A stretch of DNA of 64,000 bases from Sipunculus nudus (Eukaryota > Annelida > Sipuncula > Golfingiida > Sipunculidae). Under the pieces are notes generated by a model. It was not told the origin of the DNA. It was given only the letters and a program-made list of their open reading frames with translations, and made no database searches. Position 1 is the stretch's first letter. Each line of letters opens with the position of its first letter. Shown here in pieces: positions 4,790 through 50,560 of the stretch. The DNA lies in assembly GCA_026874595.1 (NCBI GenBank), contig CM049316.1:27697339-27761338 (forward strand), in the 5' to 3' direction. Made by a program: the position numbers and the translations under genes.

Positions 4790-5740
4790 TTTTTTTAGAA
4801 GAGCAGAAGAGGCAGAGAGGAGAAGAGAAGGAAAGAGGAAAAGAGAAAAGGGATGGAAAAGATGAAAAGAGGTGAGGGAGAATATGGAAAGAGAAAAAGA
4901 CTAGCAAAGGAAAGGAGAAGAAGGGAGAGAATAAGTAATTGGAAAAAGAAGAAGAGAGAAAAAGATAAGGATAGAGAGAATAGAGAAAGTGAAGAAGATT
5001 GAAAAGATAAGGAGAAAGAGAACAGGGAAAGTGAAGAAGATTGAAAGAGGACAAGAGAATCAGGGAGCGAATATGGAAAGAGAAGATTGGGATAAGAAAA
5101 GATAGAGAGAATAGGGAAAGAGAAGAAGATGGAGAGAGGACAAGAGAATCAGGAAGCGAATATGGAAAGAGAAGATTGGGATAAGAAAAGATAGAGAGAA
5201 TAGGGAAAGAGAAGAAGATGGAGAGAGGACAAAAGAATCAGGGAGAGAATAGGGAAAGAGGAGAAGATGAGGAGAGGAAAAGTGGAGAAAAAGAATAGGG
5301 AAAGAGAAGATAGAGAAAAGAAAAGAGAATCAGGGAGAATCCTGAAAGTGCAGAGGACAGAGAGAGGAAAAGAGAAGACAGAGAGAGGAAAAGAGGAGAG
5401 AGAATAGAGAAAGAGAAGAAGATGGAGGGAGAAAAAGAGCAGGAGAGAGAGAATAGGGAAAGAGAAGCAGATGGAGAAAGGAAAACAGGAGAGAGGATAT
5501 AAGAAGTGGAGTTGGAAAAGGGGGAGAGGAAAAGAGGGAAAGAAAAAAAAATAATAGGTTGAGGAAAAGAAAAGAGGAAGTGAGGAAAAGAAGAGGAAGA
5601 GAGAAGAGGGAGGGAGGAGACGAGAGGAGGGGGAGAGGGGAAGAGAAAGATGGAGAAGAAAAGAGACACAAGGCATAAGGTGGAGGATGCACTGTACCAA
5701 AGAAAAGACAGAAACAGAGACAGAGAGATAAAGACAAAAC
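4790..5740 (+). repeat. 0.95-kb polypurine (GA-rich) tract with an 89-bp internal tandem
   Basis: The plus strand is almost all A and G. Within it GAGGACAAGAGAATCAGG starts at 5047, 5136 and (with changes) 5225, an exact 89-base period. The rest is degenerate GGAAAGAGAAGAAGAT motifs. Long minus-strand ORFs here (up to 201 codons of Ser/Phe/Leu) arise because a pyrimidine strand cannot spell stop codons; they are not genes. Such tracts can form triplex (H-) DNA. Confidence 0.92.
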
Positions 5741-6860
5741 ATACCAGGAGACATATTCAGAGAGACAGAAGAGATGGATTTCTTACATTTATTTATCTTT
5801 TCCAGGGCACAGGAAGAAAAACTGTTATGAAGTGATGGGCAGGGTACTAAAATGTGGTAGAAGAATGAAGAAATAGAGGGAAAGTGGCCTACATTTATTG
5901 ATTGAAAATCCTGGTATTTATTTAGAAATTTTAATATGGATAAAGACTGAAAGAACCAAAACCTAAAGAAAGAGCCAGTCCTGGGTCTCCAGATCCATCA
6001 TATATCTTCAAATCATAATATTCTGGAGAAGTTAAATGAACAGTGACTGAATATTTTTTTTCTTTATCTTAATAACTGCATTAACTTAATTTGATGACGT
6101 CCATAAAGTTTGTCTCTGTTTGAAAACAAAGGCTTATCGTGGTCCTATCTTGATCAATGCTGACAGATACTTCTTTGCATTTCCAAAAATTTTCCAACTT
6201 AATTATAAGTCAGCAACTCCACAATCCGAGGGATGCATTTCTTCACTCTACAGGTTTCAACATCTGCTGCAAGCGAGTCCGGCAAGTACATCAACCAATG
6301 AATAGCTTTATTAGCCATCATTGGTATCCTGAGACACACGATTAGTGTCCCCAGACGACTAATAGCAAATCAATGACAACTAATCAGGTTTTATTCAAGT
6401 CTAGTCTGTCAATCTTCATACTCATGAATATTCATATCACTCCTCTACTAATGAAGGAATTGATAAATTCTCTGACAGCAGGAAGTTCAAACAAAGGATA
6501 TCTGAACAGTACAAAAAAATTGAAATTAATATTAAGCTAGGATAAAGACAGTGCATCAACTTAATTCCTGTTACATCTTTCTTCAGTGAGTGCACATTAA
6601 AGATAAAAGACCTTTTGATGTCATCAAATTACTGTTATTTTTAAAGTTCCAAAGAATATATTGAGCAAATAAGCAGAAGCCAATTCACGATGTGCAAAAT
6701 GGGCAGCAGTTGAAATTAAAAAGATCTATTTACAGAAAACTTTACAATAATGACCAAAGATTTTGGTGTGGATCCACCACATGATCCGGAATCAGTAACC
6801 TCATTTTAGAATAATCAATATTCACAATTATATAATCAAATACACAAATGAACCAGTAAT
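5741..6860. other. Single-copy stretch with an enhancer-like core at 6060-6460
   Basis: No repeat is recognised. The core contains a CRE-like TGACGTC (6095-6101), AACAAAGG (6125-6132, SOX/TCF type), CTTAATTATAAG and several CTAATCA/GATTAG motifs in a locally more complex sequence. Two short overlapping ORFs (6120-6345) have no family resemblance. A regulatory role is inference only. Confidence 0.3.
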
Positions 6861-21828: not shown

Positions 21829-23130
21829 CTTCTGTGGCTCAGAGGTAAAGTACAGGACTCAAAGCCAGGAGTTCAAATCTCAGTGGGCCCCCACCCAGGG
21901 TGGGCAGTCTGCAGGCTAATGCGTAGCTCACATATACACTGGGCGCCGTATGATTTTTTCAACCCGCCGGCCTGCCGTGAGTTTTCGAGACCGTACAGTC
22001 ACCATGTGGTTTTTCATCCCACGTTGTTTGCACTCACATAATCTACGGCGACCGTGCTGTGACCTCTGAAACTTGGACAGTAAGGGGGTCTTCCGGGAAC
22101 CGTAAGTGACCGTTTGGGTTCTAGCATGAATTAAGCAAGTACACCGTATGGTGCCCGGCCGGTGACCGGCAAGCGCCCGGCGGCGATCCAGGCACCGTGC
22201 GGCCACTGTAAGTATATTTTCTGCTTTATATATAGCTGCTGAACATTAAGCCAAAGAAAAAAAACAGACAAATAGGATGGAGACCAATATTATTTTTTGG
22301 GTATATTACAATCGAAGTCTTTCTTATGTAACTCGATTCGATTTTTCAATAATTAACGTTTACTACAAAATATAATTATTGGTAATCATTTATTGATATT
22401 ATATTTATTGTAGTGTCAGACCTAAGCGCTATACTTATTCATATAAATTTTCAAGGTTCAATAAAACATTTGACACATTCAGAGAAGTTCGCTTCAGCGC
22501 ACAGAGGTTCAGTGTTTATAATATATTTGTCGATGTTGCTGTATTTATATTTCCGACAGCTCAGATTCAGGGCACCATGAGGACACCGCACGGGCAAAAT
22601 TTTCATCGCAAGGGAGCCGTTCGGACCCCGCATGGCAGCCATTCAACTTTTCACATATCACAATGACCCCTTACAGGTACCGTAAGGCTATTGCACGGTG
22701 CCCGTACAGCAACGGCGGACACCGCAAGGCGCCGGTATGAATATTTTCGGGAAAATTACCCGGGAAATCCTTCGGGTGCCGCACGGATAGCGGCCAGTGC
22801 CCGTAAGGTGACCGTACGGGCTGTCTCAGCCTTTCTACAGGCTTACAGTGGGTTAAAAACGCCGGAGGAATAGAGCACAGCCAGCTCTGCACCACGGCGC
22901 CCATACGGCGAGTATAAAAATTGAACCGGCGTCCATGAAAATCGTACGGGTACCTCGCGGGCACCATGCGAATATAGCCAAAAATGGTGATTTGACTCAC
23001 CGTACGGGCCCTGTAGGCTATATGTGATAGCTGCTTAAATGAGAAGGTCATGCAAAAATGGCCAATGAGACCCATGCAGCAATGAGGACCATTACACATC
23101 CATGGCCTTCAGGTGCAGTAATCACCAGGC
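21829..23130 (+). mobile_element. tRNA-derived SINE copy C, split by a GC-rich element
   Basis: The head CTTCTGTGGCTCAGAGGTAA and B box GAGTTCAAATCTCAG run to CAGTCTGCAGGCTAATG (21920). The body resumes near 23035 with GAGAAGGTCATGC... and TTCAGGTGCAGTAATCACCA. It follows copies A and D in order. The 1.1 kb between is a separate insertion. Confidence 0.8.
21921..23034. mobile_element. 1.1-kb GC-rich non-autonomous element with CCGTACGG-type motif reiteration
   Basis: It sits inside SINE copy C. The left end GCGTAGCTCACATATACACT matches, imperfectly, the reverse complement of the right end GCAGCTATCACATATAGCCT, giving degenerate terminal inverted repeats of about 30-40 bases. Both flanks carry GC-rich blocks with many variants of ACCGTACGGTGCC, GGGCGCCGTATG and CGGGCACCGT, while the middle (22210-22560) is AT-rich. 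ORFs here (21928-22206, 22671-23099) are stop-poor only because of GC content and show no family signature. A short A+T-rich duplication (TAATG/TAAATG) is possible at the insertion point. Confidence 0.7.
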
Positions 23131-23204
23131 CTGGTTAACACCAGAATATAAAATAATAGATACTGCTGTGTCAAGTAGTTCAAAGTCATGTTAGAAGACT
23201 CTAG

Positions 23205-49704: not shown

Positions 49705-50560
49705 GCATGGATGTCTGCAGCCGAAATGTGTATGTAGGTTGTGCCACCTACCACAAAATCCAGAAAGCTATCAAAGTTGTATACAAATGCAAAAAGTCAA
49801 ACCACTGCCGAGATATGAGTGATTTAATCCCACGGCAGACAAACAGTTGGTTGCAAAAATGGTTGCAGGTGGCGCCACCAGCTTTGCGTATGATTAAGAG
49901 CTATGTGAGATTTATACACATGAAAAATTTTGGCCCAATCGGCCAAATGGTTCCTGAGATATGAGCTTGGATGTCTGCAGGGTAAATGTGAATGTATGTG
50001 GCACCACCTGCCATTAAATCAAGAAAGCTATCCAAGATGTATAAACCTGCAAATTTTTAGGCAGATAAGTCAAACCACTGCCGAGATATGAGTGATTTTA
50101 TCCAATGGCAGACAAACAGACGGACGCTGTGCAAAAATGGTTGCAGGTGGCGCCACCAGTTTTGCGTATGAGAAAGAGCTATGTGAGATCTATACACATG
50201 CAAAATTTTGGTCCAATCGTTCAAATGGTTCCTGAGATATGAGCTTGGATGTCTGCAAGGTAAACGATAATGTAGGTGGCGCCACCTGTCATAAAATCAA
50301 GAAAGCTGTCCAGGATGTATACACATGCAAAATTTCAGATGGATATGTCCAACCAATGCAGAGATATGAGTGATTTTATCCAAAGGCAGATGAACAGATG
50401 GACGCTGTGCAAAAATGGTCGCAGGTGGCGCCACCATTTTTAAAGGTATGTTAAAAAGCTATCAAAGGGCTACATTTGTGCTAAAATTTTTTCTGGATCA
50501 GTCAAATGTTTCCTGAGATATGTGGGTCAATATGTCAAAACAGACGCACAGATGGACTAA
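49705..50560 (+). repeat. Tandem array, three to four units of 260-278 bp
   Basis: ATGTCTGCAG/ATGTCTGCAA begins units at 49711, 49971 and 50249. Units share GGTGGCGCCACC, GCAAAAATGGTTGCAGGTGG, CTGAGATATGAG and GACAAACAGACGGACGCTGT. The 90-codon ORF (49692-49964) is one unit translated. Diverged relatives occur at 51835-52080 and 53500-53600. Confidence 0.88.

Follow-up and report, generated by a model that had tools for sequence, protein, structure and literature searches.

What is the GC-rich island that interrupts a SINE in this AT-rich part of the Sipunculus nudus genome, and what can its copies tell about how it moved? We analysed a window of 64,000 nucleotides (the whole stretch of DNA presented here), in which a preliminary description had singled out positions 21921-23034 as a mobile, non-autonomous element with imperfect inverted ends, lying within a SINE that continues on both sides. 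This segment is a single complete copy of a dispersed repeat family. It is an ordinary kind of transposon for such a genome, with two unusual traits, an array of CCGTACGG motifs and discordant target sites. The locus is composed of the following features:

21829..21916, forward strand: host SINE, 5' part, in which stretches like the A and B boxes of tRNAs were recognised by eye
21917..21919, forward strand: left target-site copy, TAA (TWA stands before most of the listed 5' ends; the SINE consensus here is TTA)
21920..21936, forward strand: 5' terminal inverted repeat, T-GCGTAGCTCACATATA, consensus TGCCTAGCTCACATATA (aligned copies and 131 pattern matches)
21937..22212, forward strand: 5' GC-rich subterminal region (base composition and comparison with the transposase-bearing relative)
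22213..22570, forward strand: AT-rich centre, parts of which match interior blocks of the 4.5-kb relative
22571..23018, forward strand: 3' GC-rich subterminal region, with CCGTACGG-like sites in 11-bp steps and a strong single-strand fold
23019..23035, reverse strand: 3' terminal inverted repeat, reverse complement AGCAGCTATCACATATA, consensus AGCCGCTATCACATATA (111 pattern matches)
23036..23038, forward strand: right target-site copy, TAA (listed 3' ends and flank pairs)
23039..23155, forward strand: rest of the host SINE, whose paralogs go on to ACACCAG..ATATAAAAT

We searched the source genome alone, where most copies are known from their coordinates and from short pattern matches. The whole-genome search gave 54 places that match 21921-23034 with 79-87% identity to the window copy, some of them in pieces, and 17 of the 54 span the query end to end, being at most 6 bp off. 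Once aligned, these copies have a common start and stop and unrelated flanks outside, as independent copies do. Their termini, GCC or GCG at the start and GGC or TGC at the stop, fall exactly at 21921 and 23034, the limits first drawn from the window. The family consensus is 1,117 bp long, from GCC to GGC, and the copies diverge from it by about 4-8%. Patterns of 20 or 21 bp per end, with two mismatches allowed, found the 5' end in 131 places and the 3' end in 111, the reversed patterns used as controls giving 4 and 1. The terminal inverted repeats are short, about 17 bp, and imperfect, both in the consensus and in the window copy (GCGTAGCTCACATATA / GCAGCTATCACATATA). The T at either edge (21920 and 23035) belongs to the element or else to the target site (TAA-T-GCG...TGC-T-TAA). 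The island with an AT-rich centre is equally plain in the GC content of the left flank, centre and right flank (0.56, 0.29 and 0.55), and the CpG observed/expected ratio is 1.17 in the element vs 0.29 in the window. The 3' GC-rich region (22571..23018) folds strongly as a single strand (z -4.3), and a search of Rfam gave no match. The initial view of a mobile, non-autonomous element was right.

The first unusual trait is the motif array. Counting both strands of the palindrome once, the window element has 13 CCGTACGG motifs with at most one mismatch vs 0.5 +/- 0.8 in 200 dinucleotide shuffles (maximum 5), and 22 with at most two mismatches vs 5.0 +/- 2.2 in dinucleotide shuffles; the rate in the rest of the window is 0.016 per kb. 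Hence, the excess noticed on first reading stands against a shuffled control. The family consensus has 33 such sites (at most two mismatches), 11 in the left GC-rich zone, 22 in the right one, and none in the centre. Neighbours are exactly 11 bp apart in 17 of 32 cases, where random placement expects 4.8 spacings of 10-12 bp, and none of 3000 random placements reached the observed count; the window copy retains this pattern in part. Eleven base pairs make one helical turn, and the helically phased palindromes beside the ends look like a multi-site protein-binding platform, a putative role suggested by their arrangement. Proteins encoded by such elements could bind the array on both sides and bring the two ends together, and the array thereby provides a clear prediction of how the ends are recognised. 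The preliminary description had proposed either a repeated protein-binding site or a methylation target. The phasing favours the former, and the latter is not supported, since decay at CpG sites is little above that at other C/G: among the copies, C to T and G to A changes reach 5.7% and 5.3% at CpG vs 3.5% and 3.8% elsewhere, about 1.5 times more. An old tandem duplication would also leave exact 11-bp steps, and the array might be a decayed repeat of an 11-bp unit that has no present role. We find this rather unlikely, since the sites lie on both sides of the element, several steps are of 20, 31 or 35 bp, which are not multiples of one unit, and the CCGTACGG-like sites of a 4.5-kb relative (see below) are again mostly near its ends.

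The insertion in the SINE gives a direct view of the target. Paralogs of this SINE with an uninterrupted site run straight across the junction (CTGCAGGC-TTAA-TGGGAAGG), in line with the early observation that the SINE continues on both sides, while the window reads CTGCAGGC-TAA-T[element]T-TAA-ATGAGAAGG. The difference in length between occupied and empty SINE agrees with a duplication of 3 bp and a single additional T per element end. The host SINE is older than the transposon that landed in it; ARAGORN called no tRNA in 21829..21916. The other copies agree with a target of 3 bp (TWA), a length that comparison with further empty sites also gives. With end patterns that favoured T.A and left the middle base free, 5' ends among the matches listed follow TAA in 46 cases and TTA in 35 (81 of 97 are TWA), and TAA or TTA adjoins 77 of the 98 listed 3' ends. 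Among these listed matches, more than three quarters of the ends have a middle A or T.

The second unusual trait appears when the two flanks of an insertion are compared. The matches listed give 43 end pairs, of which 33 have a middle A or T at both flanks: 14 are TAA/TAA, 5 TTA/TTA, 9 TAA/TTA, and 5 TTA/TAA. For 14 of the 33 insertions in these listed matches, the middle bases of the two TWA copies thus differ, and the 19 agreeing pairs compare with 17.5 expected by chance (Fisher P 0.7, no association). Discordant copies could be ordinary identical duplications of the same transposon that mutated later. Some decay is indeed expected in copies about 4-8% off the consensus, the three members of a young subgroup (L074, L076, and L079) are all TAA/TAA, and one insertion flanked by TTA/TTA (L066) has TTA in the empty repeat. 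Yet A-T exchange inside the element amounts to 2.6% per site per copy, which predicts about 5% discordance vs the 14 of 33 seen among the matches listed (P 3e-10). In the same listed matches the excess persists when a likely duplicate is merged (13 of 32, P 2.5e-9) and when the exchange rate is made three times higher (P 4e-4). We thus regard later mutation as improbable. 

Empty sites point to where the odd base lies. L003 has flanks TTA/TAA, and its empty paralogs have TAA in 6 of 6; L008 has TAA/TTA, with an empty target of TAA in most of 6 paralogs; and L083 has TAA/TTA, with an empty target of TAA or TAT. In these three clear discordant insertions one flank keeps the base of the target and the other departs from it. 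The window insertion went from TTA to TAA/TAA, the pre-insertion base of that SINE copy being uncertain, and L014 and two nested insertions at L084 are less clear cases, with an uncertain pre-insertion base as well. The empty paralogs of L003 and L083 have both flanks in one contiguous piece, which rules out ectopic recombination for these two insertions. It is unlikely for L008, whose flanks are contiguous too, although over no more than some 14 bp past the junction. Gene conversion between copies is an unlikely source of discordance, the copies being star-like and diverged. On the star-like tree, which is without power, the left middle-base label is unclustered and the right one weakly clustered.

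To which group of transposons does the family belong? We sought long copies by matching up 5' and 3' ends according to their coordinates, and found a 4.5-kb copy at C9:61463380-61467881 (L077 + L085) bounded by the ends of the family. Its 5' end matches consensus positions 1-158 at 93% and its 3' end positions 575-1117 at 88%, and positions 1-154 of the window element are 88% identical to its 5' end. The interior of this relative holds two separate blocks that match parts of the AT-rich centre (element positions 343-434 and 430-547), and between the blocks lies a reverse-strand gene with pieces that match DDE_Tnp_4 (HARBI1-type). The individual pieces reach at best E 1.8e-9. Joined as one hypothetical reading, they match DDE_Tnp_4 with E 3e-25 over model positions 1-158 of 158, with AIDGKH, GDDAF, and VVENAFG at the expected places of the DDE triad. 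The gene is broken in this degenerate copy, none of the 150 scored matches of a genome search with DDE_Tnp_4 falls within it, and we found no intact autonomous copy with the ends of the family in this genome. Solved structures gave no sequence match. A search for the second, Myb/SANT-type ORF of PIF/Harbinger elements met a charged ORF of 123 aa on the opposite strand, which lacks a Pfam match. Two other candidates for an autonomous partner were rejected, the extra DNA being a LINE insertion in L082 and a second repeat family in L081.

Since the relative on C9 shares both ends and centre with the short element and carries a transposase, the short element is best seen as having arisen from one of this kind by internal deletion. 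The island is very probably a non-autonomous cut-and-paste transposon of PIF/Harbinger (PHIS superfamily) and descends from a longer, transposase-bearing element that lost its coding interior; the link to C9 suggests that the transposase of intact relatives would have mobilised it in trans. The idea of an undescribed class is not supported, because the same termini bound a longer copy with a PIF/Harbinger transposase; the family may already have a name in Repbase or Dfam. A foldback, Helitron-like or other undescribed element would account for the GC-rich repetitive flanks, the strong 3' fold (z -4.3), and the absence of coding capacity, but is hardly credible given the TWA target sites, the terminal inverted repeats, and the DDE_Tnp_4 transposase linked through a copy with common ends and centre.

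The assignment to PIF/Harbinger, which includes Tourist-type MITEs such as mPing, fits the DDE_Tnp_4 transposase in the same-ended relative, the 3-bp TWA target, the inverted repeats, and the short non-autonomous derivatives. At 1.1 kb the element is long for a MITE, and the 33-site CCGTACGG array also sets it apart from PIF/Harbinger and mPing. The NuwaII group has the target C|TNA|G (PMC4482050). Our family resembles it in its TNA-type 3-bp target and in a frequent C before the left TWA (13 of 20 copies). It differs in having almost only A or T as the middle base and in lacking a consistent G after the right site (A 7, G 6, C 5, T 3). PIF/Harbinger elements are expected to have identical target-site copies, whereas flanking TWA copies here often differ at the middle base. 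As both transposase and target agree with PIF/Harbinger, we regard this discordance as a variation inside that group.

The pattern at L003, L008, and L083 is most simply explained if an overhang from the donor pairs with the target. The transposase would cut in a staggered way at TWA, so that 3-nt overhangs leave with the element and pair with a TWA target; one flank would then retain the middle base of the target and the other would bring that of the donor. We tentatively propose that a TWA overhang from the donor stays on the excised element and anneals to a TNA target, such that the flanks are not a true duplication, a reading that we consider slightly less likely than not. A staggered TTA/TAA overhang of this kind is known for mPing (PMC4561436, PMC11254759): its excision leaves 5' overhangs derived from the target-site duplication (PMC4561436), and engineered insertions bring the donor TTA/TAA to the new site (PMC11254759). 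However, 45 of 46 insertions of TCA-flanked mPing in yeast were at TTA/TAA, with little sign of carry-over (PMC4561436), which argues against it as a general rule. The family bears on this question of carry-over in mPing (PMC11254759 vs PMC4561436), as old genomic insertions with discordant target-site copies would preserve a record of PIF/Harbinger end joining. Of the two unusual traits, the discordant target sites are of greater interest and still need direct proof.

A second abundant family has the ends GCCTCGGTCACAACC, with 591 + 573 ends genome-wide at no more than one mismatch, and often carries repeats of its own end, of about 76 bp, just inside. Like the present element it has CCGTACGG-like motifs and TWA-type flanks; it differs in its inverted repeat, in having A rather than T flanking, and in being far more abundant. 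Only 1 of 9 flank pairs agree in this family, a count that comprises 9 pairs only, for which the end register is uncertain, and which we do not take to prove discordance. In L081 (538-7396) it sits at the TAA at about 158-160 of the present element. Other DNA is found at the same TAA (element position about 156-161, TTGGTTGGTAAGGGGG) in L081, L083, and L007, a possible insertion hot spot. At L084 (C7:31729430-31733339), a copy of our family is nested in another copy, itself within a piece of the GCCTCGG family, and a cluster of copies at C2:77.0-80.3 Mb shares the right flank GGCACCA, apparently as one insertion duplicated with its surroundings. Elsewhere in the window there are tandem arrays at 274-911 (26-bp unit, 24 copies) and 49794-50441 (278-bp unit, 2.3 copies), and a GA-rich repeat tract with a strong purine bias at 4807-5656; the GC skew is 0.67 and the AT skew 0.60 at 5001-6000.
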